This document shows positions 9,146 through 64,000 of a stretch of 64,000 bases of DNA, piece by piece. The translations under genes and the position numbers were made by a program. How positions within the stretch are numbered: position 1 is the first letter of the stretch; each line of letters starts with the position of its first letter. Origin of the DNA: Panorpa germanica (lineage: Eukaryota > Arthropoda > Insecta > Mecoptera > Panorpidae); the NCBI GenBank assembly GCA_963678705.1, contig CAVMBN010000228.1:1-64000 (forward strand). Direction: 5' to 3'. Below the pieces are notes generated by a model that worked only from the letters and a program-made list of their open reading frames with translations, was not told where the DNA came from and did not search any database.

Positions 9146-12100
9146 ATGAAAAGGCAACTATCTAAAGGTTGTCCTCAGCGATCTGTAATGGGGCCTGAGC
9201 TCTGGAACATGGCATTCGACGAGAACTGTGTTTCTCACTCGAAAGGTTGTGTAGACATATGTTTTGCCAACGATAATGTGATCCTTATCGGTGCAAATAG
9301 TACAGAAACCCTAGAAAGCCGTTCTCGACCTGCTATATATAAAATCTGTAGTTTCTTGAAGCTACAAAGCTACGAAACAAATACAGTAACAACGAATGAT
9401 AAACTTGTAACACACCTTGCGCGTGTCACAAGGACGGAATGAAGCTTAAACTCGGCAACTATGCCGACACTATACAAGGGGGCATTTATGCTAATAGTTG
9501 TGTATTGTGTTTCGGCATGGTATTACAGGATTAATCTTCCAGATCTTCCATGCAAAGAACTATGTTATTGACGATGACGCGTTGTTGCAGAACTGTATCT
9601 ACAGAAGTGGTGCAAGTGATATGGGGGACAATTCCTTTAGATTTAAAAATCACTCATGCACTTACTCAAGTACAAATTATGCTAGAACTGAAAAAATCAA
9701 ATTTTGATGATTTAAAATTAATGCGACAAATTTCGAGGATTTAAAGTTAATGCGGCTGTAGGATAAAAGTCTGGAGACGATACCAAATATATTGCCAAAG
9801 AGATGAATGCATATATGCATAAGCTCTGGCAAGACAGATGGGACTTAATACAAAAAGGAAGACCTACGTATTGGTTTACAAGGACGTTAATATTGCTTTG
9901 CAACACAAGTGGTTCCTATCTACTATGTGTGTGATCGGCTCCTGCTACTTTAGGTGAAAAAAGTGATTAAAAGTGAGAAATTAATTATGGAAAAAAATTA
10001 AATAAATTATATGAATAGTTTTTCAAACGAAAAGTATTTAAGTTTGTTTTAAATTTGTGTTAATTTACCCTAAACAAAGTGTTTTTACAAAAGATTGACA
10101 GTTGGAAACCAGTGTTAAAAACGAATTTTTCATTACGCGTACACGCGGTCTTATAAACATAACCTTAAATTTGTAACTTTTATGTTTGATATAAGACATT
10201 AATAAGTGCGATAGACAAAAAAAGTGATAATAATTAGGTTAGTGTTAGTGCTAAAACATCAAGTGGTTTAAAATTCAAGAAATCTGTAGAGATATATAAG
10301 GAAGACCTCATATAAACACTACAAATATACGGAAGACAAAAAGTTGCCGTCCTCTATCAAGTAAGTCGAATAACATTAACTATAAATAATATTAAAACAC
10401 AAGAATTAGTTTATATAAATGCGTGTTTTAAATAATAATGAGTGTGTATTAATTGTTATAAGTGATTAAGTGAACAATATATGCGGTTTTCTTGGAAATA
10501 GTGATTGATCGTTCATGAACATTCAATGGTAACAAACAAATGGTAAGTAAGTAGGCATAAGTACAAGTATGTATATGAGATATTTATAGAAATTCAGTGT
10601 GCCTTTGTTGATGCCCGGTGGCCAAGTGACCTTCAAAGAATTAGACCGGCAAAAACCTATAGGTACGTCTACTGCGCTATGGAGAACTATTTTCATTGTC
10701 AAACATTATTTTACAAACCGATTACCGTTCCATGAAAAGGCAACTATCTAAAGGTTGTCCTCAGCGATCTGTAATGGGGCCTGAGCTCTGGAACATGGTA
10801 TTCGACGAGAACTGTGTTTCCCACTCGAAAGGTTGTGTAGACATATGTTTTGCCAACGATAATGTGATCCTTATTGGTGCAAATAGTACAGAAACCCTAG
10901 AAAGCCGTTCTCGACCTGCTATATATAAAATCTGTAGTTTCTTGAAGCTACAAAGCTACGAAACAAATACAGTAACAACGAATGATAAACTTGTAACACA
11001 CCTTGCGCGTGTCACAAGGACGGAATGAAGCTTAAACTCGGCAACTATGCCGACACTATACAAGGGGGCATTTATGCTAATAGTTGTGTATTGTGCTTCG
11101 GCATGGTATTACAGGATCAATCTTCTAGATCTTCCATGCAAAGAACTATGTTATTGACGATGACGCGTTGTTGCAGAACTGTATCTACAGAAGTGGTGCA
11201 AATGATATTGGGGACAATTCCTTTAGATTTAAAAATCACTCATGCACTTACTCAAGTACAAATTACGCTAGAACTGAAAAAATCAAATTTTGATGATTTA
11301 AAATTAATGCGACAAATTTCGAGGATTTAAATTTAATGCGGCTGTAGGATAAAAGTCTGGAGACGATACCAAATATATTGCCAAAGAGATGAATGCAGAT
11401 ATGCATAAGCTCTGGCAAGACAGATGGGACTTAATACAAAAAGGAAGACCTACGTATTGGTTTACAAGGACGTTAATATTGCTTTGCAACACAAGTGGTT
11501 CCTATCTACTATGTGTGTGATCGGCTCCTGCAACTTTAGGTGGAAAAAGTGATTAAAAGTGAGAAATTAATTATGGAAAAAAATTAAATAAATTATATGA
11601 ATACTTTTTCAAACGAAAAGTATTTAAGTTTGTTTTAAATTTGTGTTAATTTACCCTAAACAAAGTGTTTTTACAAAAGTTAGACAGTTGGAAACCAGTG
11701 TTAAAAACGAATTTTTCTTTACGCGTACACGCGGTCTTATGAACATAACCTCAAATTTGTAACTTTGATGTTTGATATAAGACATTAATAAGTGCGATAG
11801 ACAAAAAAAGTGATAATAATTAGGTTAGTGTTAGTGCTAAAACATCAAGTGGTTTAAAATTCAAGAAATCTGTAGAGATATATAAGGAAGACCTCATATA
11901 AACACTACAAATATACGGAAGACAAAAAGTTGCCGCCCACTATCAAGTAAGTCGAATAACATTAACTATAAATAATATTAAAACACAAGAATTAGTTTAT
12001 ATAAATTCGTGTTTTAAATAATAATGAGAGTGTATTAATTGTTATAAGTGATTAAGTGAACAATATATGCGGTTTTCTTGGAAATAGTGATTGATCGTTC

Positions 12101-28909: not shown

Positions 28910-29739
28910 TGTAACCCTACCCCCTTATATCTACTATCTATATATGGTGGTAGTTACTTATTTTATGAGGGCGGTTCTATAATTCCCTCATGCGAGAGTT
29001 CTTTTGGAGATCTGGTTCTCCTTGAGTCGGATGACCAAGCTACTTGTGGAGACTTATATATCTATCAGGACTTATTACCTCATCTAATCATATTACATAA
29101 ATATATTAGGTTTTCCTTACTTTTTGTACTTTCTGCAGGCAGTTTCCTCTGCTTTGGACAATCACTTTATTTAACGCGACGCGACCGTTAACTCTAAGTA
29201 CTTTTACAATTAAAACAAGGGATTCATTAACACTTAATTCTTTATTATTCAAACAATTACTTAATACAATTCTTAGTAACTTTATTAACTTTGGGACGAC
29301 TATGGCGACTGACTTTACCCGATCTCGTGATCTGATGGAAATGATCCCCTCTCCTCTCTTAAACTAGGCTTATATAGCTTAAAAACTCTTTGTTTAATGT
29401 ATGAACTCATTTGAACTCATTACATCATCACTTCTTCGGACTTTGTATTTGGTTTTAACATAAACATTATTTCAAACTATTCGTGCTTATGAACAAAGGA
29501 AGTTAATTAATATTTCTTTTTAAAAAGTTATTGTAAATACTACATAGCCAGTTTTGAATATAATATTAATATGAGTCTTGGTCTTATTGATAAAACAATA
29601 CTTAATGTAAATAATGTGCGCGACATTTAGGCGACTTAAACTATTAAAAATACTTTGTATATGACCATTCACACTGGTTCCTAAATAGTTAGTTAAAATA
29701 TATTATCAATAATTAATGAATCTATATAGGACTGTTACA
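28910..29739 (-). repeat. 3' LTR of the gypsy element (830 bp)
   Basis: The plus strand reads TGTAACCC at the left edge and GACTGTTACA at the right edge, so the element has TG...CA ends inside a 6-bp inverted repeat (TGTAAC/GTTACA). The left edge coincides exactly with the break in the satellite. The right edge abuts a purine-rich tract (minus strand AAAAATGGGGAGTAA), the expected place for the 3' LTR. A TATA box and several AATAAA motifs on the minus strand fit U3 and R/U5. A partner LTR was not found in the window. Confidence 0.85.
29369..29377 (-). promoter_or_regulatory. TATA box of the gypsy LTR
   Basis: The minus strand reads CTATATAAG, followed within about 40 bp by a purine-rich GAGAGGAGAGGGG stretch. 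It lies in the middle of the LTR, where a U3 core promoter is expected. Confidence 0.5.
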
Positions 29740-31969: not shown

Positions 31970-33889
31970 TTATATTCTACTATTCGATATCCACGGTTGT
32001 TTTGGTGCAACGCATCGGCTGCGCAAAGAGTAACTATGCCCAATTGTATCTTCAACTGGATTTTCTATCTCTATATCAATATTCTCTATATTGTTATTAT
32101 TATCAATATTCGTGTCTATCTCGATTATTTCTTCTATCTCATCTGATATCTCATTATTCGTATCACTAGTATAACCAAAATTCAATAAATTACCGAAACC
32201 TGTATTTAGATTCGTACCATTTTCTTCATCTTCAGATTCACTTTCTGAATGAACTTCATTTTTTCCTGAAAATACCTCAGCTGTGTTACCTTTAAATTTC
32301 TTGAGGCGATTAACATGCACTCGTTCTTCTCGTTTTCCATAAATTTCCTTTATTAAAAAGTTTACTTCACTGGTTCTATCAATAATTCTATAAGGACCTC
32401 GCCATACTTTTCCAAGCTTTCTACTTAATCCTGGTGTGTGCGTCATATGTTTCAATAGCACATGATCACCTATTTTAAATTTTACCGGTTCCGACTTTTT
32501 ATTATATTGTTTAGCTTGTCTATCTTTTGCTGTTTCTAACCTTTCTGTACATAACTTAAAAGCGTTCTTTAATCTTAAAATTAATTCGGCGGCATAATTA
32601 TCATCGAGGTCGTATCTAACTCTTTCAGGTTTTAATACTTCACCATATAGTAATACCATATCACGACCATGCATTAGAAAAAATGGTGTTTCTTGTGTCG
32701 AACTATGTATAGCTGCATTGTATGCCATGACAGCGTAGTTTAAACAGGAATCCCAATTTCTTTGATCAGAATCCACGAAATGTGACAAATAGTCTTTTAA
32801 TATACGATGACAACGCTCTAAACTTCCGTTTGTCGAAGGAGAATACGCTGATGTTGAAAGTTGCGTAATGTCTAGTCTTTTACAAACGTTTCTAAATAAT
32901 TCGGACAAAAAGTTAGTTCCTCTATCTGTCAATAAAGCTTTAGGAGTACCATAACGTGCTATAACTTGTTCACAAAATACCTTTGCTACCGTTTCTGCAG
33001 ACTGATCAGGTATTGCAAACGCTTGCAAGTATTTTGAGAATGCACATTGAACTGTTAAAATGTACTTCATTCCTGAATAACTGAGTACTAATGGTCCTAC
33101 AATATCTAGTGAAATTCTTTCAAATGGATAAGTAAGCGGTTTAAATTTCTGTAACGGTGCTCGTTTTAAATGAGGTGACGTTTTTCTCATTTGACAGCTC
33201 AAACATTCTTCACAATATCTTTTTATGTCTTGTATCATTGCTGGCCATACAAAATGTTTCTTTATTATCTGTAGTGTCCCTTCAAATGCCCTATGCCCTG
33301 CTGAAGGCGTATTGTGAAACATATACAATATATTCGGTACCATTCGTGTTGGTGCTACTACACAGTCATTTCTATCTGTTTTTTCATTACTTTTCTTATA
33401 CAATATACCCCTATCATCTAAATAATAATCATTTTTCTCCCCATACTTAGTTTGCGTTATTAATTGTTTAATATGGGAATCACTAGCTTGTTCATTTTTA
33501 ATTTGACACCAATCCCAATATGGAACTTCTTCAGCTGCTACGGCTGCAATACTTTCTGTTTCTATTCTACTTAATGCATCGACATTACCGTGTTTTACCC
33601 CTGGCCTATAAATAATTTCAAAATCGTAATCTGCTAAAGTTAAAGCCCACCGTGCTAATCTACTTTTCATTGGATCTTTCATAGTCATTAACCAACGTAA
33701 TGATCTGTGATCTGTTTGAATCTTAAATTTCTTACCATATAAATACGTACGAAAATGTGATAAACTCCATAAAATCGCTGAACATTCCCTTTCTGTGATT
33801 GAGTAATTTTTCTCACATTTATTTAGTTTACGAGAAGCGTATGCGACAGGACGTTCTACTCCATCCTGAACTTGGCTTAGAATTGCGCC
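31970..33889 (-). pseudogene. Gypsy pol: RNase H C-terminal part and integrase
   Basis: The frame is open from just after a TAA at 33890-33892 to 31970, although its first ATG is at 33688 (572 residues from there). The start shows RNase H sequence ending in the typical YRPGVKHGNVDALSR tail. Integrase follows: an HHCC-type zinc region (H125, H132, C162, C165 counted from 33688), then the DDE triad as D195 (SLDIVGP), D255 (TDRGTNF) and E291 (NGSLERCHR). The C-terminal GPY/F-type module (WRGPYRI) lies near residue 430, followed by an acidic tail rich in Glu, Asp and Asn. All catalytic integrase residues are present, so this part is intact and is separated from RT only by the upstream nonsense codon. 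It continues the same frame as the RT segments. Confidence 0.93.
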
Positions 33890-34498
33890 TTATGCAATTC
33901 CTGATGCATCTGTACCTAATATAAATTCTTGACTAAAATCTGGGTAAGCTAAGACTGGCGCAGAACATAACGCGTTTTTTAATGCTTCAAAACTTTTCTC
34001 TTGTTCAGGTCCCCAAATAAATGACTCATTTTTGCATGTTAGTTTTGTTAGGCTTGATGATAATTCTGAAAAATTCTTTATAAATCGTCTATAAAATGAA
34101 GCTAACCCTATAAAAGATCGGATTTGTTTAACTGTTTTCGGACGCGGATAGTTTCTAATTACTTCTGTTTTTTCTGGATCTGCCTTTACACCATCACTAG
34201 AAATAATATGACCAAGATATTGCGTTTCTTTATTCATAAATTCACATTTGCTAGGCTTCAATGTCAAACTTGCTTCTCTCAAGCGATCGAAAACCTCTTT
34301 AATTCTCTGGATATGTGAATCTACATCATCGATACTAAATATTATAATATCATCTAGGTAAACTAAGCAATGTACTCCGGTTAAACCTGCTAACACTGCA
34401 TACATAAGTCTCTGAAATGTAGCAGGAGCTGATACTAACCCAAACGGCATAACATTAAATTGAAGGTGTAAATCAGGTGTTGAAAATGCTGTTAATTC
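33890..34498 (-). pseudogene. Gypsy pol: reverse transcriptase C-terminal half and RNase H start
   Basis: This segment lies between two TAA codons (34499-34501 upstream, 33890-33892 downstream) and shares one frame with both neighbours. It shows MPFGLVSAPATFQ and the catalytic YLDD box (residues 31-34 counted from the ATG at 34450), then the thumb and connection (QIRSFIGLASFYRRFI), and the start of RNase H with TDASG. The TAA at its end falls a few residues after TDASG, inside the first RNase H strand. Family and order are clear; function is lost unless both stops are read through, for which there is no evidence. Confidence 0.93.
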
Positions 34499-35236
34499 TT
34501 AAGATTTTTCGTCCATTTTAATTTGCCAAAATCCCGATGCTAAATCTAATTTGGTAAATAAACTTGCTTTGCCTAATTTATCAAGAGTGTCTACTAAGTG
34601 TGGTAATGGAAAGTAATCTCTTTTTGTTATTGCGTTAAGACCCCTGTAATCTATGCAAACTCTAACCTTGTTTTCCCCATTTGCTGCTTTCTTATTTACA
34701 AGAACAACATTACTGGACCACGGTGACATTGATGGTTCTACTATGCCATCTTCAAGCATTTGATCTATCTGTTCTCTCAGTACCTGTAATTGCGCGTGTG
34801 GAACTCTATATGGTTGTTTAGTTATAGGAGGAACATCTTGAATTATTATCTTATGTTTAACTATCGAGGTAGTTTTCAATTCTTGACCCTCTGTTAAAAA
34901 TATGTCGCGATATTCGTAAATTAGATTTTCCATTTTACTTTGGTCTCTAGCACTTAAATGATTTAACTTTATTTTACTAAAAAGTTCCGTTATTCTCTGT
35001 GTTTTATTTATATCATCATTCTTATAACTTCTTTGCTTCCACTGATTTGTAACTTCATGTATAATTTTATCTTCTTTAGCTGTTAAATTTTTATAACCTA
35101 TTTCATCAAATAACTCTATATTTTCAATCCCTGTGTTTACTTCTGCTGATCGTACAGCACCAATTAAAAAATTTTTATTTCTTTGTCGGACATGTTCTCT
35201 TAATAATTCTACTGTTTCCGTATATTCGTTATCATA
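34499..35236 (-). pseudogene. Gypsy pol: reverse transcriptase N-terminal half
   Basis: The frame contains the pre-RT linker, then KQPYRVP, the fingers motif (RVCIDYRGLN) and the first catalytic aspartate in FTKLDLASGFW (D232 when counted from the GTG codon at 35239), ending in a TAA at 34499-34501. That stop is in frame with the following segment, so it is a single nonsense change rather than a frameshift. Upstream the frame runs straight into the left end of the DNA transposon at 35237. Removing that insert and one copy of its TA duplication keeps the reading frame with the spacer-domain segment upstream. GTG is not the true start; the segment is internal to Pol. Confidence 0.92.
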
Positions 35237-37148: not shown

Positions 37149-37765
37149 TATGGCTCTATTCTACCTATCTTAGTATTTATTGGTATATTTATATTCTTCT
37201 GCGTAACATTGGTTATTCTACATATTAACCTACCCTTACATATTGAATTTACACTTCTTGCTACTAATACTCCATCTATGCTCAATTCTGGGTTAAAAAT
37301 CCCATGACCTTCCTTAATGTCTTTTTGAAACGCGTAAACATTTATTGTACATCGGGGCGGTAGCGTTTCTTGACCTAGTAACCTAACACTATACCGATTA
37401 CTACTACACGTGTGTGCGTCTGTTCGCTTTCGAGTGGTTTCAGATTTCTCATTCATATTTTTGTTTATCTTTTCAACTCGGTCAGCTGTGTTTATTCTTT
37501 TTAACCACTGAGTTTGTAAATTCTTCCATTTCTTTACCTGTTCTTGTTCTTTTATATACTTTTCGTCAATGTTACCTTTTAAATCATTATCATTTTTATT
37601 TATTAAACAGTTCATATACCTTTTTTCATCTTTTTCTGATTCGCCATCATAGAATGCTATCTTTATTTTACATTCCGAAAATATATATTCAATTATTTTA
37701 CTCACTATTTTAAAATCTAATTTATCTAGCCCACATGCTATGTATGGTAATGCAATAAATTTCAT
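37149..37765 (-). pseudogene. Gypsy pol: macrodomain C-terminal part and spacer domain
   Basis: The open frame starts at the ATG at 37765 and formally ends at 37112, but its last residues come from the DNA transposon; the retrotransposon part stops at 37149. Residues 1-40 complete a macrodomain: FIALPYIACGLD at residues 3-14 matches the conserved loop with the catalytic aspartate (D14 here, aligned to D125 of human TARG1), followed by a helix and the final strand KIKIAFY. A charged linker follows. Residues about 130-205 form the spacer module often seen between protease and RT in gypsy elements (LPPRCTINVYAF ... DGVLVARSV ... TKIGRIEP). The ATG overlaps the stop of the upstream frame by one base register (ATGA), in the middle of the fold. 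Confidence 0.85.
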
Positions 37766-38646
37766 ATATGATCCCGTAATTTAATTATTGACGAATATAA
37801 ATCTGCGTAGAGAGGTTTCTCGTTACTACTCTTCTTTGTTACTAAATAATATATAAAACGATTTTCATTTTTTAATATAGCTAGTCCACCCTTTTTCTGT
37901 TTTTGTTTCAAAAGCTGCTCAACTCTACCAAATCTTTCTTTAAATTCAACTGCTATTCCTTGTGACATACGTAAATCTGATGCTACACAATGACCCAATG
38001 CATACTTGCTAGATGCATTAAACAAATCTCCCTTATTAAAATTTATTTTGCACAACGACTCTATCGTTGGAAATCTACTAATTTTCCATTTTAGAAAATC
38101 ATCAAAACTTTTATAGTCATGCCCTATCTTATCAATTCGCTGATTATTTATTTCTCTTTTTACGTCAATATTTTCTGTTTCAGTACAACCTATATTTCTA
38201 CCTTTTCTATTCTTTTCTACGATTTTCCCTGACTTTGATATAATACGCTTTTGCTTTCTAATGATACCCTTTATATTTTCTCTAATCATATTATTTATAT
38301 TTAAATTATTTATCTGAAAATCATGTACAGTATTACGATTAATGTCGTAAATAACGTTTCTATATATTAAAATACCCTTTGCAAAATCTACAATTATCCC
38401 AAATTTACGAAAAAAGTCTAACCCAATTATCCCTGTCCAATTTTCCATATTTTCTACAATTTCAAAATCAAAAGTCACATTATCCCCAAATAAATCTAAC
38501 TTTAATTTGCTTTTACCAAGTGTATGTATTTTATTATTTTGTGCATCTCGCATAAGAGGTATATTAGACTTAGTCTTCATGTCACAAAGTCTCAAGAATG
38601 GCCTATATTCTCTATACAGACTTATAAATTTGTTCCAAAACATCAT
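37762..38646 (-). pseudogene. Gypsy pol: partial aspartic protease fused to a TARG1/OARD1-like macrodomain
   Basis: The frame has 294 residues. Residues about 30-95 are the C-terminal part of a retropepsin (LMRDAQNNKIHTLG, then GIIGLDFF at 72-79). The D-T/S-G active site should lie just upstream, where this frame begins, so the protease is truncated. After a basic linker, residues 199-294 read as the N-terminal two thirds of a macrodomain of the terminal ADP-ribose glycohydrolase type. KINFNKGDLF and GHCVASDLRMSQGIAVEF form the ADP-ribose binding strands and loop, and IYYLVTKK carries a lysine (K271) aligned to catalytic K84 of human TARG1. That family removes ADP-ribose from proteins; here the partner and role are unknown. 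The domain continues in the next frame after a break. The copy count of this architecture elsewhere cannot be judged from one locus. Confidence 0.85.
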
Positions 38647-43392: not shown

Positions 43393-43701
43393 TGTACGAA
43401 ATAAAACCATGCGAGTATTTGTAGATTGAATAATTTATTCAATCGTTTAATGATAAAATTAATTTACACTTTTTAATAACTTTAACCAAAATACTAATAA
43501 TATAAAATGGTTGCGAATTATGATCTTGACAGTGTAGAAGCCCAAACCACAACTGACTCGATGGCCCTATGGCCGTAGCGTACACAGCAGTCGTCGTATT
43601 GTTGCCATGCGCATTACTTCTATCAGAGACAACAATACATTATAATGTTGGAATGTCAACAGAGACATCTCTTATGTTCTGTACTAATTTTGTACTGAAC
43701 A
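43393..43701 (-). repeat. 3' LTR of the BEL/Pao element
   Basis: Begins TGTACGAAATAAAACC and ends TTTTGTACTGAACA on the plus strand, so TG...CA on either strand. It reads the same as the partner at 46148-46456 over 309 bp. On the minus strand it holds AATAAA-type signals near its 3' side. Confidence 0.95.
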
Positions 43702-43873
43702 TAAATTGGGCGGCCAGGATAAATAGATAAGCTCACAACCAATATCAAATTATACAATGTTACATAAAATTATTATAAACCAAATTACAAAAAATAATGT
43801 AAACTTCTTAATTCTAATTCTTCTTAAAACTATTATAAACAAAATTACACAAAATAATATAAACTTCTTAATT

Positions 43874-45532
43874 CTATGGTAGTCTACATAATTTTGTGAA
43901 AATAATATAAAACAAATTAATTACTATCCTAAATATAACAGAAACCGTAACTAACAATGTAGCATACAATATCATAAACATAACTGGCACAACAATCATC
44001 AACAACAATTCCAACAGTACAGGTGTTTGTTTTACTTCAATGTTGTAAGCATTGCAATTAGTATCTTCACCTTCTGAAGGAAGTATTGTATTTAAATCAG
44101 AAATTTTATTTGTTGCTTGTTTTATTCGCGCCAGCAACACTGCGCTAATAATCTCAAGCTGGGGTATTGTAAGTACCTTACTTGATGGAGCCACACTAGA
44201 CTTGTAGCAAATTAAATTTGTTTTTATCTTACTATTTATAAAAATAATATTGTGTTTTAAACCTAATGTCATAATACTGGTTGATCTGTTTAATAATGTT
44301 TTATAAACCTCCAATAATGAAGGATTGCGTCTAAATCTTTTTTCCAACACATTAAATCTTTGCAGGGCGACTGAGAAAGAATCCCCCAATTCTATTTTAT
44401 TTACTAGGCTGAGTAATGGCAAATCAACAGTTAAATTATTTTTAAGTGCTACTGAATTTTGAAAATTATGTTCAGCCTTTAAGTAATCCTCAGAAAACTT
44501 ATCTGATTCCTCTGGGACTTTCTCAGTCGTCCAAGATTGTTCCATAACATTCTCAAGGTTTGTATAGTCACAAATAGCAAGATTACATACAATATTATTA
44601 TGTGAATACTTATTTTGATTATGCAATTTTCTTGGATCAATAAATTTTTCTTTATTATTATTGTCATGTGACATATTTTTATAATCTAAACTATACTCAA
44701 GTGCAATTGCACGTCTTTCTAAAAATGAAATAAATTCTGCCATAGTAGGCAGTTCTTCTAAATTTCTTTCCATGTGGAAAGTGCGGTTAGTAACGATATC
44801 TAATTTTCTACTTAAGGCCGAGATTAAAATCATATCCCATTTGTCTACAGGCTCATCAAGATTTTTTAACGCTTGTAATTGCTGTTTTACTTGACATAAA
44901 AAAGCCCTTATAGCGACTGCAGTACCTTTCTGCATGTTGGGAATATCAAGTAGTATATTAATGTGATTAAAGATTAATCTCGCCTTATTTTCATACCGCG
45001 CTAACAATAAATCAACAGCCTCTTTGTATGAGCTGTTCACAAGCGGCAGATTTATAATTATTGAGAGAGCCTCATCAACGAGATACTTTCTCAAATAAAA
45101 AAGTCTTTGTACATCGGACAATGAGGTATTATTATGAACAACTGCTTGGAAGAGCTCATAAAAGGGCTTAAACCTGGTTATATCCTTGCCATCGAAGGTT
45201 GGAATTTCCACTGCTGGGAGCTTCAATGGAACTAATTCAGGCCTATTAACTTCTTTTAATCTATTGATGCTAGCATTTAATTTTGCTAGAATATTAAAAT
45301 ACTTTTCTTCAACTTCTTCTATGTCTTCCTCATCTTGATCATCAATTTCTAAAATGCTGTACTGCGTGAGCTCGTACGATTGGAATGTAGTCATCATCTT
45401 TTCTTTTTTCACCTGCAGCACCTCCACTGTAGCGGAGTCGAGAGCCCTTGGGTCGCTGACGTAATTGTCCATCCTTGATATTGAACTTTTTGCAGTCGTC
45501 CGCGCCGTTCTAAGCCTTTTCAATCCCTCCAT
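43874..45532 (-). CDS. BEL/Pao Gag fused in frame to Pol scraps and a membrane tail (552 aa)
   Basis: The frame is open from 45802, but its first ATG is at 45532 and begins MEGLKRLRTARTTAKS, as BEL/Pao Gag proteins do. Residues about 105-285 are the conserved Gag region (KLPAVEIPTFDGKD, SLSDVQRLFYLRKYL, LLLARYENK, FISFLERRAIALE). The zinc knuckles and protease are missing. Residues 322-415 match the segment before RT (NLENVMEQSW, SFSVALQRFNVLEKRF). RT proper is missing; residues 437-470 match RNase H (YKSSVAPSSKVLTIPQLE). Residues 504-546 are strongly hydrophobic, like the end of an envelope protein, so the product could be membrane anchored. Every deletion kept the frame. Gag would form the particle and package RNA; the rest is unlikely to be enzymatic. 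A domesticated host gene is less likely given the fresh LTRs. Confidence 0.85.
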   Translation of the reverse strand: MEGLKRLRTARTTAKSSISRMDNYVSDPRALDSATVEVLQVKKEKMMTTFQSYELTQYSILEIDDQDEEDIEEVEEKYFNILAKLNASINRLKEVNRPELVPLKLPAVEIPTFDGKDITRFKPFYELFQAVVHNNTSLSDVQRLFYLRKYLVDEALSIIINLPLVNSSYKEAVDLLLARYENKARLIFNHINILLDIPNMQKGTAVAIRAFLCQVKQQLQALKNLDEPVDKWDMILISALSRKLDIVTNRTFHMERNLEELPTMAEFISFLERRAIALEYSLDYKNMSHDNNNKEKFIDPRKLHNQNKYSHNNIVCNLAICDYTNLENVMEQSWTTEKVPEESDKFSEDYLKAEHNFQNSVALKNNLTVDLPLLSLVNKIELGDSFSVALQRFNVLEKRFRRNPSLLEVYKTLLNRSTSIMTLGLKHNIIFINSKIKTNLICYKSSVAPSSKVLTIPQLEIISAVLLARIKQATNKISDLNTILPSEGEDTNCNAYNIEVKQTPVLLELLLMIVVPVMFMILYATLLVTVSVIFRIVINLFYIIFTKLCRLP

Positions 45533-45699
45533 CTTGCTTAGGTGATAAACTCGTACTTGTATGATAGACGAAACGTGGATGACAAAACTAATCCAGGTTA
45601 ATCCAGCAACATAAGAAGTTTTTAATAAATTGGTACTTGTAGATAGTAATAATAGCTTTGTACCTGCATGAGTAAAGAAGTATTTTACTCTCTTCCAGC

Positions 45700-46075
45700 A
45701 TCCATGTATCCTCTTCCGTAATGAATAATTTTTCTTGAAATATAAATGTGTAGTAATCAAACCGTCTGTGAATCCGTCTAAATCAAGCGTTGCATTACCC
45801 AATCAATGGCAATTGATGACTTGCCAGGCCGCCATAGGGAAAATGTAAGAAACAGCTTGCACATGTGCCGGTTACTATACAGACGTAACCTCAAAACACC
45901 ACGAAATCACACGCGGGTACCAATGGCTTGTAAGACCAGTTTTTTTTGTAGGAATTAAAACCTTCTTGAAATGTAATTGTAAAATCCAAATCCTCCGTGA
46001 ATCCGCCAAAATAGAGCGTAGCATTACCCAATCAATGGCAATCGCCAAGGGGCAAATGTAAAAAAACGCCAAAAA
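45700..46075. repeat. Duplicated segment in the BEL/Pao leader
   Basis: The stretch around 45,735-45,830 (TTCTTGAAATATAAATG ... CATTACCCAATCAATGGCAA) recurs at about 45,962-46,042 with scattered differences (TTCTTGAAATGTAATTG ... CATTACCCAATCAATGGCAA). The leader therefore contains a diverged direct repeat with a period of about 230 bp. Confidence 0.7.
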
Positions 46076-46125
46076 CACAATGAAAAACACACGCGGATAA
46101 TAAACTCGAAGGATCGGCTTTGTAA

Positions 46126-46139
46126 GGCTCGAAGGACCA
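46126..46139 (-). other. Primer-binding site of the BEL/Pao element
   Basis: The minus strand reads TGGTCCTTCGAGCC, which begins with the TGG complementary to a tRNA CCA end and continues like the complement of a tRNA T arm. It lies 8 nt inside the 5' LTR. A similar GATCCTTCGAG word recurs about 20 nt further in. Confidence 0.65.
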
Positions 46140-46147
46140 GCTTCGCA

Positions 46148-46456
46148 TGTACGAAATAAAACCATGCGAGTATTTGTAGATTGAATAATTTATTCAATCG
46201 TTTAATGATAAAATTAATTTACACTTTTTAATAACTTTAACCAAAATACTAATAATATAAAATGGTTGCGAATTATGATCTTGACAGTGTAGAAGCCCAA
46301 ACCACAACTGACTCGATGGCCCTATGGCCGTAGCGTACACAGCAGTCGTCGTATTGTTGCCATGCGCATTACTTCTATCAGAGACAACAATACATTATAA
46401 TGTTGGAATGTCAACAGAGACATCTCTTATGTTCTGTACTAATTTTGTACTGAACA
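46148..46456 (-). repeat. 5' LTR of the BEL/Pao element
   Basis: 309 bp with the same ends and the same sequence as 43393-43701. It is followed on the minus strand by TGCGAAGC and then the primer site. The target duplication GTTTC lies immediately outside. Confidence 0.95.
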
Positions 46457-50309: not shown

Positions 50310-51116
50310 GACTTGTGTACTCATTTTTTTGTGGTCGATTTTTCAATTGTTGATTGAAATTGATGATAATAAACAAATGTATCTTGGCATGGATGTATCT
50401 TTATTTCTTCAGCAACAGTTGTGATTTTCAGATCCATATAAATTTAACTGTTTCAGAGGTACCACAGCGCGTTAACTGTGTTAAGTATTACTTTGTTCTG
50501 AAATGTCAGGATGATTCTGATGTTGCTGTCTTTGGTGCAACCACACAATTGAATACCATTCGGCCACACTGGCTTTAGAAATTGCTTAAACATCAATATT
50601 TTAATGTGGATAGATAAAATGGATTGTCGTCTCATTAGCCAATACATTTTTCTATAGCTAATTCTAATGAAAGTTTTCTTAATCAGTAATGAATTTATTA
50701 CCCATTAATTTGGGACCTATTTCTGAGGCTTCAAAATCATCAACTACACTTTGTACACTTTTCAAATTATGAACTTTGGCGTTTTTATTTTATTAAATAT
50801 CTAAATATTGCCGGAGATATAGCAACTAAAAATTCTACTTGTATTTGTAACGCTACTAGCCATATTTATGATGTAACATGCCTGTACTATTAAGGGTAGG
50901 TCTTTTACGCTCTGTTCTATAAAAGAGATAGCGACTTGTCACATGTCTTGGAATGTTCTATAACGTTGAATCCCTTTAATAATTTAAGGTACAAAATGAC
51001 TTTTTTAATTGTTAATATTTCTTAATATACAACAAGTTATTAACAAATAATTGAACATATGAGGTTCTAGTAACCAACTTTATCAATGTATAGTGCAGTT
51101 TTATGGAACACAAGCC
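50310..51116 (-). mobile_element. Small TIR element, family GGCTTGTGT, copy 2, interrupted
   Basis: This is the inverted relative of 40355-40964, with ends GACTTGTGT (50310) and ACACAAGCC (ending 51116). It shares GTGGTCGATTTTTCAATTGT near 50,330 and GGTTCTAGTAACCAACTTT near 51,063 (complement in copy 1). A 387-bp Jockey-like fragment splits it at 50389-50775; without that insert its length is about 420 bp. Confidence 0.7.
50389..50775 (-). mobile_element. Jockey-like LINE ORF2 fragment, copy 1
   Basis: On the minus strand the frame reads RKMYWLMRRQSILS, LMFKQFLKPVWPNGIQLCGC, SNIRIILTFQNKVIL and NALWYL, then after a stop DLKITTVAEEIK. This is the conserved C-terminal region after RT in Jockey-clade LINEs (LKPVW-YGIQLWG, FQ-KVLR, NAPWY). 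It has replaced sequence inside the TIR element, and TTGGC flanks both sides (50384-50388 and 50776-50780), which fits a target duplication. It lacks RT, a 3' tail and an obvious poly(A). The second copy at 52543 has nearly the same limits. Confidence 0.75.
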
Positions 51117-51875
51117 CATTGCTAACACCATAAGTGAAATATTTCATGGTATACACATACAGTAATACTAATTATTCACGGTTGTTTTTCTAACAAGTTA
51201 TTATCATCATGTAAGTACAATTACAATCATTAATTACAAAGTAAAAGAATTCCTTTACCAAACAAGCGCGTATGTTATTTCACATTAATTTACATATAAA
51301 ATAAAATTGAAATCAAGAAGAAAAGAACAGTAGTCATACAATTAAAAATACATAAGTAAACAGTAAAGATATCATCAGCTTCAACTTCTGCGCTATCGAA
51401 GCAACTCAAGCAGTGAAGCAGTCAACCATATGGCGGCTACAACCGCGAAGTGAAAACTTTTAATTATATAATATTTATTATGATAATTATTTCAAATGTT
51501 CTTGACTTTAGAAGTCTATGATTTTGCTATTGCTGCTGGTGTGTTGTTCTTTAAATTTCACTCTCCTTGTTACTCAAATTCTAATTCGGCGACGATGGTA
51601 AACAGCGGGCCACGGGTTCATTGAAATATGATTGTGCTAATTAAACTACAGTTATAGATTACTGCTTCTTTTCAAATTTTATTTTAATAAAATATATCCG
51701 GTTATCTTATTAATATTATGTAACATACTGTCTTCATTAAAAATTGTTTTTAATGACTTGTGATATTCCCAATTCGTTAACAGGTAAAATTAAATTTGAG
51801 GGCTCCTAATTCTAATATTTTTTCGAATGATATTTGTTGATATAACTAATAACAGTGGCACATATATTTTATATA
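51117..51875. other. No gene seen
   Basis: AT-rich spacer with no recognisable frame or repeat. Confidence 0.35.
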
Positions 51876-52455
51876 GAACCATTCACACGTCGCTTGTACT
51901 GCAAAAAGACGTACACATCTAAACACGTTTATCGAATACACACCGGACTTGTCAAGCAGATCGAATAGTAACCGAACAAGTGTTTAGTGCTGAAGTATCA
52001 TTTGCACGTGTTTCAAGTTTATTATTAGAAAATGTTCGACGAATCTTTTATAGATAATGATTTATTGATTTCTTTGGTAGAGCAAAAGCCCGTTTTGTGG
52101 GATAAAACTATGGAATTATATAAAAATCGCGTTGAGACTCAAGAGCCGTCACAGACAATATTTTATCCAAAAATTCCAAATCAACAATAATTCGGCTACT
52201 ATAAATTGTAGCAGTACAAATCTAACAACAATACCTTCGCTTCAAAGTACGAACTCTATTGATTTGTCCTATTCAAAATTAATGAAATTAATAAAACTTA
52301 AATAATACCTATATCAAACAGCGTTTTTTTATTTCTTTACTTACCTTAAACATATAGCAAATTTAATTTTAGTAATTAATTTAGTAATTAATTTTGCCGT
52401 ATGAAAAATGCGGATATACGTTTTTACAAATAAAAATTTACCGTGTGAACATCCC
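51876..52455 (+). mobile_element. Possible small transposon carrying a MADF mini-gene
   Basis: The left side reads GAACCATTCACACG (51876-51889), and the right side reads CGTGTGAACATCCC (52442-52455), an imperfect inverted pair; inward of both lie similar words (AAAAAGACGTACAC and, complemented, AAAAACGTATATCC). Between them sits a MADF-domain frame. MADF or Myb-like second proteins are a known partner gene of PIF/Harbinger elements, which makes a Harbinger-related origin plausible. I could not find a clean target duplication. Confidence 0.4.
52032..52190 (+). pseudogene. MADF-domain N-terminal fragment with deletion and frameshift
   Basis: An ATG at 52032 opens a 52-codon frame. Residues 8-37 read DNDLLISLVEQKPVLWDKTM and continue to ELYKNR, the start of a MADF (Adf-1/Myb-like DNA-binding) domain, with its W in the first helix. 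The remaining two helices are missing. A second frame, shifted by one base, continues to a TAA at 52303-52305 with a Ser/Thr/Asn-rich stretch ending LSYSKLMKLIKLK. The natural reading is a MADF gene that lost most of its middle and then drifted. A functional micro-protein is possible but unsupported. Confidence 0.65.
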
Positions 52456-52542
52456 GCTGATTATACGTTTAAAATCGAATACTGAACTCATCCTGCACTC
52501 AACGTTGGAGTGTTGACGGAGTCGTTCTTTGTGCTTCTTAGC

Positions 52543-52929
52543 ATGTATCTTTATTTCTTCAGCAACAGTTGTGATTTTCAGATCCATATAAATATATCTG
52601 TTTCAGAGGTACCACAGCGCGTTAACTGTGTTACGTATTACTTTGTTGTGAAATGTCAGGATGATTCTGATGTTGCTCAAGTCTTTGGTGCAACCACACT
52701 GGTGAATACCATTCGTCCACACTGGCTTTAGTAATTGCTTAAACATCATTATTTTAATGTGGATAGATAAAATGGATTGTCGTCTCATTAGCCAATACAT
52801 TTTTCTATAGCTAATTCTAATGAAAGTTTTCTTAATCAGTAATGAATTTATTACCCATTAATTTGGGACCTATTTCTGAGGCTTCAAAATCATCAACTAC
52901 ACTTTGTACACTTTTCAAATTATGAACTT
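52543..52929 (-). mobile_element. Jockey-like LINE ORF2 fragment, copy 2
   Basis: About 95 percent the same as 50393-50776, with one 3-bp difference that keeps the frame (minus-strand LLKPVWTNGIHQCGC and DLSNIRIILTFHNKVI). Similarity ends abruptly on both sides (ATGTATCT on the left, GAACTT on the right) at the same points as copy 1, though the flanking DNA is unrelated. Shared ends mean the fragment itself, not a longer LINE, was the unit copied. Confidence 0.75.
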
Positions 52930-61388: not shown

Positions 61389-61532
61389 ATAAACCTAGAG
61401 ACGTTCAATGTGTGTTTTTCGGAAAAGTGGATAAAGACTTTTAGTGTGGTGAACATAACCTTAAAAAAAAAACGTGGCTGTTGAAACTGTTTCTGTTCTT
61501 CTTTGTGTATAAAGTGTTCTCAACGAATAAAA

Positions 61533-63137
61533 ATGGCATCGAATAATTCACTGGCATTAATCGAGAAGTTAACCGGCCGTGAAAACTATTCGACTTGGCA
61601 ATTCGCAGTGAAAACATACCTACAACACGAAGAATTATGGGATTGTATTGAGGTTACCCCGGCGTCACGCACAGATTCAAAACGTGATACAAAAGCGAAA
61701 ACAAAGTTAATTCTTCTGGTTGATCCGATCAATTACGTTCATATCCAAGAGGAAAACACGGCCAAAGGAGTTTGGGACAAATTAACTGCAGTGTTCGACG
61801 ACTCAGGACTTACACGCCGAGTTGGTCTGCTACGTGATTTATGTAACACATCGTTAAGTGGATGTCAAAATATAGAAGAGTATGTGAGCAAAATTATATC
61901 AACTGCTCACAAGCTGCGCAACATTGGCTTTAAAGTGGACGACGAGTGGCTCGGGACATTGCTGCTCTCCGGTTTGCCCGAATCATATCAACCAATGATT
62001 ATTGCGATCGAAAGCTCAGGCACAAAAATAACTGCAGACGGTGTTAAAGCAAAACTATTGCAAGATGTTAAAAATTTAGACAACAAAACAACGGCTTTTG
62101 CTGTCGACAAGAAGTTTCATAACAACTCTGTAAAGAAGAAGTTCTACAAGGGTGCGAGATGTTATTCCTGCAATCAATATGGACATAAACGCTCTGAATG
62201 CAACAAATACAAAACCATGAACAAGACACAAAAACCTAGCTCTTCTTATGCTGCTGTGTTTGTTGCATCATCCCACGATGGTGATGCTTGGTACATAGAC
62301 TACGGTGCTTCGGCACATATGACTAAGACCAAGAATATAATTGTAAAGGAAACTACCCCTATAACAAAGAACATTCGTGTTGCTGATAACAAAGTGTTAT
62401 CTGTGCAAATCTCAGGAGATGTCAGCTTAAACATTTATGACCAAAACGGGCAAGAGAATAAGATTCTGTTCACAAATGTCTTATATGTTCCTGAATTGGC
62501 AACTAATCTGATATCTGTAAGCCAAATTATTAAAAATGGAGGCCAAGTGAAATTTGATACCTCAGGCTGTGTGATCATGAACAGCAAAAATCAAATAATA
62601 GCAACTGCAAGCATTGTAAATAACATGTACCGGCTGAACATGCCTGAAAGCCTTGCGCACATGTCTAGTGTTGAACATGAAAAAGATGCTTTTTGCCGGC
62701 ACCAGAGGATAAGACATCTTAATTTCCAAACTTTGAAAAAATTGTCTGATAACACAGAGCATTTAACTTTCTCAGGAAATACAGAAAATCTGAAATGCAT
62801 AACATGTAAAGAAGGAAAGCAGACACGGTTACCTTTTAAAAGTGATGGAGTCACCAAAGCCCTAGAACTGGTTTATTCTGACGTATGTGGACCAATGGAA
62901 ACCCAGTCTCTCGGTGGGAGCAGATATTTTTTAACCTTCCTAGATGAATATTCCAAGAAGATTTCAGTATACTTTCTTCACAACAAGTCTGAAGTGCTCA
63001 GTAAATTTAAAGAATTCAAGCAAGAAGTTGAAAATCAATCGGATGCTCATATAAAGGTTCTTCGTACAGACAACGGACTTGAATACGATAACAAAGCCTT
63101 CTCTGATTACCTGAAAGGTGCCGGAATCATTCATTAG
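61533..63137 (+). pseudogene. Copia Gag-protease-integrase, ending at an in-frame TAG
   Basis: The first ATG (AAAAATGG context) is at 61533 and gives 534 residues. Residues 1-185 are the copia-type capsid region (LTGRENYSTWQFAVKTYL, ALIEKL). A CCHC zinc knuckle lies at C210, C213, H218, C223. The protease core reads WYIDYGASAHMT, where the usual D-S/T-G is D256-Y-G, so the catalytic triplet is altered. The pre-integrase motif, normally W-H-x-R-L-G-H, reads RHQRIRHLN. Integrase shows CITCKEGK, D450 (YSDVCGP) and D513 (RTDNGLE). The frame ends at TAG 63135-63137, at the codon after GIIH where glutamine is usual, which is a C-to-T change. Order and motifs are certain; activity is unlikely. Confidence 0.92.
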
Positions 63138-64000
63138 ACCACCACACCATACACGCCTGAACAGAATGGGACTGCGGAACGTATGAATCGGACACTGGTT
63201 GAAAAAGCGAAGTGCATGCTACTCAACGCTGGTCTGCCGAAGTTGTATTGGGCAGATGCAATACACACTGCTGCTTACATCATCAATCGTTCCCCAACCA
63301 AATCCTTAGCTTTCAAGACTCCTATGGAAATCTGGTCTGGACGCAAACCCAATGTTAATCATATGCGTATATTTGGCTGCGAAGCAATGGTTCATCTACC
63401 TAAAGAAAAACGCAGAAAATGGGATCCAAAGGCTCAAAGAATGATTTTCATCGGATACTGCGACCATACAAAAGGATACAGATTCACATTACCAAATACT
63501 AGAAAGGTAATAAAGAGCAGAGATGCTACATTTCTTGAATCCTCAGTGAAAAGAGATTTTGTTTCGGTAGAATTGAATGAGACAGAAACTGAAAATGACA
63601 AAACAAATACAAGAAAAGAAGATGTAAGAGAAAATGCAACAACGGAAGAGGACAGCTTGATTGACAACGACACAAATTTAGAAAGTTCATATGAAACAGA
63701 GAAAGGAAACAGGTCAACATCCGACAGTGAATACTTACCTAACACCAGAATTGATTCTCCTCCCGTCAGTAATGTGACATTGAGACCAAGAAATAAAAGA
63801 AAAAATAAGAATTTCAACTGTCCATGTACTGAACAACACACTCATCTGTGTTTATTCTCATCCTGTGTTCCTGTAACATATGAAGAAGCAGTACATTCAA
63901 TAAATAAAAATGAATGGAAAAAGTCAATCAATGAAGAACTTGATGCTCATAAGAAAAATGAAACCTGGACATTGATAGAAAAACCTCCAAATGCCAAAGT
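63138..64000 (+). pseudogene. Copia integrase end and reverse transcriptase start, continuing past the window
   Basis: This stretch stays open in the same frame as the upstream Gag-Pol from the TAG to the last base. It begins TTTPYTPEQNGTAERMNRT, which supplies the third integrase catalytic residue (the Glu of AERMNR), followed by the rest of integrase (WADAIHTAAYIINRSP, RIFGCEAMVHLPK, MIFIGYCDHTKGYR). An acidic and Ser/Thr-rich linker lies at about 63,550-63,780. The last part (YEEAVHSINKNEWKKSINEE ... NETWTLIEKPP) is the conserved opening of copia reverse transcriptase. There is only one nonsense codon between this and the start of Gag. Confidence 0.9.

Follow-up and report, generated by a model that had tools for sequence, protein, structure and literature searches.

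A TARG1-type macrodomain within the pol of Ty3/gypsy LTR retrotransposons of Panorpa germanica

On the minus strand of the 64-kb stretch of Panorpa germanica DNA analysed here (the window), a decayed Ty3/gypsy pol carries a TARG1/OARD1-type macrodomain between the protease and the spacer leading to reverse transcriptase (RT). On balance, we favour a joint reading: the window copy is a dead member of a young, multi-copy LTR retrotransposon family in which the macrodomain is a regular part of pol, and the pol-encoded domain would undo host ADP-ribosylation, its catalysis, packaging, target and benefit being what we infer. The original prediction described a single element; the finding proved wider, extending to several lineages and to different positions in pol.

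The window copy and its macrodomain

The broken pol is read from a series of minus-strand open reading frames (ORFs). ORF 38646-37762 contains the retropepsin tail, then a linker and then the macrodomain except for its last third, ORF 37765-37112 contains that last third and the spacer, and ORFs 35239-34499, 34450-33890 and 33688-31970 encode RT, RNase H and integrase. The protease-RT-RNase H-integrase order of Ty3/gypsy pol was established from Pfam matches in the window (RT, RNase H, H2C2 and rve), with the protease taken from the relatives L042 (Pfam) and L005 (LIDSGAG motif). The features, in window coordinates, are as follows.

38350..38555, minus strand: retropepsin remnant, with GIIGLDFF at about 38433-38410; relatives of the same family (family A) align mostly from query residue 28, with LIDSGAG upstream
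38050..38349, minus strand: protease-macrodomain linker, in the same open frame and also present in family A copies
37765..38049, minus strand: N-terminal two thirds of a TARG1-like macrodomain; the K84 equivalent lies at 37836-37834 (phmmer, PDB 4j5q, E 9e-24)
37646..37765, minus strand: C-terminal third of the TARG1-like macrodomain; the D125 equivalent lies at 37726-37724 (phmmer, 4j5q, E 0.0057; blastp, P0003, E 2e-07)
37149..37645, minus strand: macrodomain-RT spacer, in the frame of the macrodomain C part and joined to RT in L005, L008 and L010
35237..37148, no strand assigned: presumed CACTA-like DNA transposon relic, a later insertion with ORF 36304-35741 (minus strand), placed by its border sequences and its absence from three of three relatives compared
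33890..35236, minus strand: RT and start of RNase H, with in-frame stops at about 34499 and 33890 (Pfam RVT_1 4.9e-07 and 3.9e-20, RT_RNaseH_2 2.8e-12)
31970..33889, minus strand: remainder of RNase H and integrase (Pfam on ORF 33688-31970: Integrase_H2C2 1.8e-17, rve 3.9e-12, Integrase_p58_C 4.5e-08)
28910..29739, minus strand: 3' LTR (29739-28910 matches, at 86%, L065 514-1341, an LTR from a full-frame family A copy)

Element DNA starts only near 38555, where DNA matches to relatives begin (38552-38555), and the first ~30 codons of ORF 38646-37762 are foreign; this 5' truncation explains why the protease active-site part is absent from the window copy. Comparison with relatives further revealed a ~13-base deletion that splits the macrodomain, leaving its N- and C-terminal parts in different frames, and RT/RNase H is interrupted by two in-frame stops. 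A natural frameshift acting as an expression signal was ruled out, since residues of TARG1 are lost at the break and the frame stays open there in other family A copies.

Between the spacer and RT lies an insert of ~1.9 kb (about 37148-35237) that the original prediction did not mention. It is bounded by TA on either side and has the inverted ends CACTGCAAACTC.../...GAGTTTGCAGTG, and we take it from these ends to belong to the CACTA-like class of DNA transposons; Pfam gave no match for its ORF. The three relatives that lack the insert (L005, L008 and L010) run unbroken across the site. Because of this continuity, macrodomain, spacer and RT are parts of one element, and the alternative of two unrelated adjacent elements was ruled out. 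The 3' LTR, the only one left in the window copy, adjoins a satellite array.

This array (1-29051) is built from a 1.58-kb unit repeated in tandem ~18 times, the repeats agreeing at 95-100% for the most part but less well in places, and the unit at 9517 seems, from motif reading, to hold a LINE-type RT remnant (ORF 10663-11025). Elsewhere in the window, direct repeats of 309 bp (43393-43701 and 46148-46456, 100% identical) surround a 642-codon minus-strand frame (43877-45802); the element as a whole (43393-46456) looks like a BEL/Pao-type gag without pol, and appears to be a recent, possibly non-autonomous LTR element. A further direct repeat pair at 50393-52929 (384-387 bp, 96.6% identical, ~2.15 kb apart) is LTR-like, and no open frame of 100 codons was found around it within 50-53.2 kb. 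On the plus strand at 61485-63998, motif reading indicated Ty1/copia-like gag, protease and integrase frames running past the window end. Rfam at gathering scores returned no match in the window.

The coding segments on which the original prediction was based, and the position of the macrodomain between protease and spacer/RT, were found as described, apart from the N-terminal segment having been placed at 38048-37762, a range that is not in frame. In phmmer searches against the PDB, residues 200-293 of ORF 38646-37762 align to residues 7-100 of TARG1, and residues 4-39 of ORF 37765-37112 align to TARG1 109-144. The two pieces are thus in the correct order relative to TARG1, with few residues lost at the break. 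For the second ORF, a match of the linker to INO2 (E 0.0036) ranks above TARG1 and was taken as chance. Pfam Macro reports neither of the broken window pieces.

Related elements and the number of captures

The genome searched comprises 464,208,970 bases in 249 contigs. With the protease-macrodomain ORF as query, at least 140 matches were obtained, with 133 of the 806 candidates scored. Family A is represented by at least 69 pieces including the window, at 76-100% identity, some of them fragments of one copy. Eight copies have open frames of 1636-1638 amino acids (aa), and some genome copies carry stops. The family order is protease-macrodomain-spacer-RT, with the LIDSGAG protease motif in L005, so that intact copies with the predicted arrangement in one open frame do occur in the same genome. 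In one full-frame copy, the source of the LTR in L065 that matches the window, the LTR pair is identical at 557 of 557 bases (compared up to the end of the fetched stretch), identifying this copy as recent. No env ORF was detected for family A, there being no ORF longer than 124 aa in the 2.4 kb behind pol of one copy.

A search with the macrodomain of P0005, a relative described below, gave at least 150 matches (150 of 534 candidates scored), and one representative open frame per family was placed by Pfam together with a local macrodomain profile. Family D (L042, 1526 aa; G000:C2:17016600-17021800) has the protease at residues 42-127, the macrodomain at 271-406 and RT at 756-920, followed by RNase H and integrase. 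In family B (L016), RT (62-221) and RNase H (318-417) precede the macrodomain (498-646), and integrase (762-932) follows; at least 18 family B loci have 1389-aa frames, and two loci on different contigs are identical over the compared frame. Families E1 (L043), E2 (L044) and E3 (L045) have RT, RNase H and macrodomain, with integrase after the macrodomain in E2 and E3; for E1, no integrase was reported by Pfam in the frame that was read. Behind the E2 pol (L044, G000:C5:16194200-16198800) lies an env ORF with a Baculo_F match (E 3.2e-43). Within one genome, the domain therefore occupies two pol sites, the protease-RT interval (A, D) and the site after RNase H and before integrase (B, E).

In a protein collection, two of 76 candidates, P0003 (1699 aa) and P0004 (1191 aa), are Ty3/gypsy pols with the macrodomain after integrase. 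In P0005 (1832 aa, 30 member sequences), the macrodomain, 51% identical to human TARG1, is followed by a copia-type RT (RVT_2, E 1.9e-16); an integrase before the macrodomain was identified by motif reading only, Pfam showing none. With the 294-aa ORF as query, no relative emerged among 773 candidate proteins, all of about 162-514 aa. TARG1-like genes were also found at two bacterial loci, in a search of genome contigs, and in one viral contig. Viral contigs yielded no relative of the 294-aa ORF, the RT piece or the RT alignment, and the sole match to the macrodomain alignment was a stand-alone gene in a 149-kb contig (L001 10004-10462), near a dUTPase-looking ORF (11417-11854). Searching phages with RT gave one weak match.

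In searches of relatives against the PDB, human TARG1 was matched with E-values of 5e-39 (P0005), 3e-38 (P0003) and 3.5e-15 (family D), and the five best matches were human TARG1 chains in each of the searches with the window N part, P0005 and family D. The Pfam model PF01661 fits TARG1-type domains poorly: relative to its cut-off of 22 bits, P0003 scored 20.9 and P0005 19.7, P0004 was not listed, and among the genome families only L043 reached it (22.2 bits), the others being lower or not listed. A genome search with PF01661 returned three E1 copies and two loci outside the element families (L086 and L087); the latter have no match to the TARG1-like profile and are presumably MacroD-like and GDAP2-like.

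An AlphaFold2 model of the P0004 domain, built from an alignment of four sequences including the window N part, had a pLDDT of 85.6 and a pTM of 0.85. A structure search with this model bore out the predicted fold: the eight best PDB matches were all human TARG1 (TM 0.87-0.95), followed at ranks 9-11 by DarG macrodomains (16-18% identical) and then by others. Alphavirus macro domains ranked below TARG1 and DarG, at 12-16% identity in the structural alignment, placing the P0004 domain outside the viral MacroD type. Chance resemblance was ruled out by the E-values together with the recurrence across lineages.

An RT tree of eight lineages, in which family A is represented by a partial RT (40% of columns), placed A and D as sisters (98/96) and E1-E3 in one clade (100/100), while B, P0003 and P0004 were not resolved. 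As sisters, A and D most simply share one acquisition in the protease-RT interval. In the macrodomain tree, A, B and E each grouped and the deep nodes were left open. The occurrence of the domain at three different Ty3/gypsy pol positions points to repeated uptake or to movement within pol; with the deep macrodomain nodes unresolved, the case for separate captures is one of position, not of phylogeny. A host-type ADP-ribosylhydrolase was probably recruited into pol repeatedly.

The competing history, in which a single ancient capture preceded shifts of the domain within pol through recombination between elements, seems to us the less probable one, though still a serious contender. The macrodomain tree is compatible with it, in that the grouping of all 14 element domains into one clade has support of 45/8, too little to establish such a clade and no ground for dismissing it. 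It must, however, account for three Ty3/gypsy positions plus one in a copia-type pol, and for RT lineages that are far apart (39-47% identity among A, B, P0003 and P0004). The domains themselves (A, B, P0003, P0004 and P0005) are 43-51% identical to human TARG1 and 39-47% identical among themselves, and for B, P0005 and P0003 the identity to human TARG1 (50, 51 and 47%) exceeds that to one another (40-44%), which also speaks for repeated recruitment.

Active site, selection and putative function

In human TARG1, K84 is the nucleophile and D125 the general base of a catalytic dyad, and both are needed for hydrolysis, not for the fold. The first lysine of TKK aligns to K84 and the aspartate of CGLD to D125, in agreement with the original prediction, which had also supposed that the element kept its catalytic residues. 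Almost every copy that was read retains both, and so do the families other than D and part of E2. Over the family A and B loci read, all 57 have K84 and 55 of 56 have D125. For family A, these are K84 in all 26 loci fetched, window included, and D125 in 24 of the 25 that are readable, L051 carrying D125E and L009 being cut. Both residues are present in all 31 family B loci fetched, a sample that is not random because 30 of the 31 are the best-scoring loci of the P0005-domain search.

E1 has both residues in three of three copies and E3 in six of six, but in E3 the GCG preceding LD is altered. E2 keeps the lysine in five of six copies and the aspartate, by count, in three of six: L044 and L076 have both, L075 has K to N, and L077-L079 keep K and show N at D125, beyond which the read is cut short or loses its frame. 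P0003, P0004 and P0005 keep both residues. In an alignment of 11 sequences with D left out, T83, K84 and D125 are among 14 invariant columns. All seven family D copies have K84R, and the only one whose read extends to position 125 has D125C, so that catalysis is dispensable in this lineage; its dead-site domain may either keep a reading role or be an older domain that has lost its task.

Among distinct variants of the family B macrodomain in 22 copies, 21 synonymous and 14 nonsynonymous changes were counted, giving an omega-like ratio of 0.24 (P 2.8e-5), comparable to 0.17 for RT-RNase H and 0.39 for integrase in the same family. The family B macrodomain is thus under purifying selection. For family A, the data are suggestive of selection: the count over 21 copies, decayed ones included and L051 left out, gave 0.50 for the macrodomain (P 0.0095), 0.51 for the protease and 0.67 for the linker, and in four long frames the pooled pN/pS was 0.11 in the macrodomain versus 0.29 and 0.32 alongside. 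The eight full-frame copies alone, with few variants, gave 5 synonymous and 9 nonsynonymous changes (P 0.24).

These observations leave little room for the domain as a functionless passenger gene or a chance resemblance, which we regard as very improbable. The broken window copy, and the stops in part of the genome copies, are what such a passenger would produce; set against this are E-values down to ~1e-39, the near-invariance of K84 and D125 in A and B, the purifying selection in B and the recurrence of the domain in separate lineages.

In the reading that we favour, the macrodomain would be made, and probably packaged, together with the other pol enzymes, and would act as a mono-ADP-ribosylhydrolase, stripping ADP-ribose placed by host PARPs on element or host proteins and possibly also removing it from nucleic-acid ends of the element. 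Such removal during reverse transcription and integration could ease host restriction.

The retention of the domain in family D despite K84R and, where read, D125C would be easier to understand if it were an ADP-ribose reader that anchors the complex for integration at ADP-ribosylated chromatin or sites of DNA damage, with catalysis secondary or lost. Chromodomains tether chromovirus integrases, and integrase is the next domain after the macrodomain in B, E2 and E3 and precedes it in P0003 and P0004. Against this, A and B keep the two hydrolytic residues almost without exception, and in A and D both RT and RNase H lie between the domain and integrase; we consider this role unlikely.

It is similarly doubtful that the domain clears PARP-placed ADP-ribose from element cDNA ends or genomic RNA rather than from proteins. 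DarG macrodomains, which remove ADP-ribose from DNA, come next after TARG1 in the structure matches, and the element domains sit beside enzymes that handle cDNA. At 16-18% identity, though, the DarG matches indicate only a related fold. These two roles are the main rivals of our preferred reading, a hydrolase acting on element or host proteins, with nucleic-acid ends as a possible additional target.

Relation to known macrodomains and retroelements

The closest known protein is human TARG1/OARD1 (C6orf130; 4j5q, 4j5r, 4j5s), with which the element domains share sequence, fold (P0004 model) and the K84/D125 pair. The cellular protein is small and stands alone, whereas in the elements the domain is one module within the polyprotein; in addition, P0003, P0004 and family B lack the Gly of the KGDLF motif. 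With Ty3/gypsy elements (Metaviridae, including errantivirus-like ones), the elements share the order of protease, RT, RNase H and integrase, the LTRs and, in E2, a Baculo_F-like env; they differ in the additional macrodomain, located between protease and RT, between RNase H and integrase, or after integrase.

The macrodomains of plus-strand RNA viruses belong to the MacroD-like class, and we know of none with the K84/D125 dyad. Those of alphavirus nsP3 and coronavirus Mac1 are comparable in being an ADP-ribosylhydrolase fold carried by a virus and countering host ADP-ribosylation; they differ in sequence, as the low identity of the alphavirus domains to that of P0004 illustrates. Among retroelements, fish epsilon-like endogenous retroviruses occasionally bear macro domain ORFs (PMC4977317, citing Basta et al. 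2009) and are similar in combining a retroelement with a macrodomain gene. They are vertebrate elements in which these are additional ORFs, of a macro class that the relevant passage of PMC4977317 does not state, whereas the domains described here are TARG1-type modules inside the pol of Ty3/gypsy elements and of one copia-type element. In searches of the open-licence PMC literature, no Ty3/gypsy element with a macrodomain was found. Host-gene capture by retroelements is as such already known; new here is the capture of a TARG1-type host gene, which was probably recurrent.

More tentatively, LTR retroelements may have captured TARG1 independently (Ty3/gypsy at least twice, and Ty1/copia) as a recurring counter-defence, with ADP-ribosylation as a general, unrecognised restriction and family D as an arms-race loss of the active site; we would put this extended scenario at somewhat less than an even chance. 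To our knowledge, ADP-ribosylation as an antiviral signal is described mainly for vertebrates and RNA viruses. If our reading is true, this signal acts on endogenous retroelements too, young LTR retrotransposons carrying a TARG1-type eraser against it. The presence of such an eraser in several element families suggests that elements use or fight the cellular ADP-ribose signal, and pol emerges as a polyprotein able to take in an enzyme at several sites. The question is made testable by a natural element whose active site consists of two residues, and by family D, a sister with a naturally dead site. PARP catalytic domains are present in the host genome, with ten matches above the Pfam cut-off.
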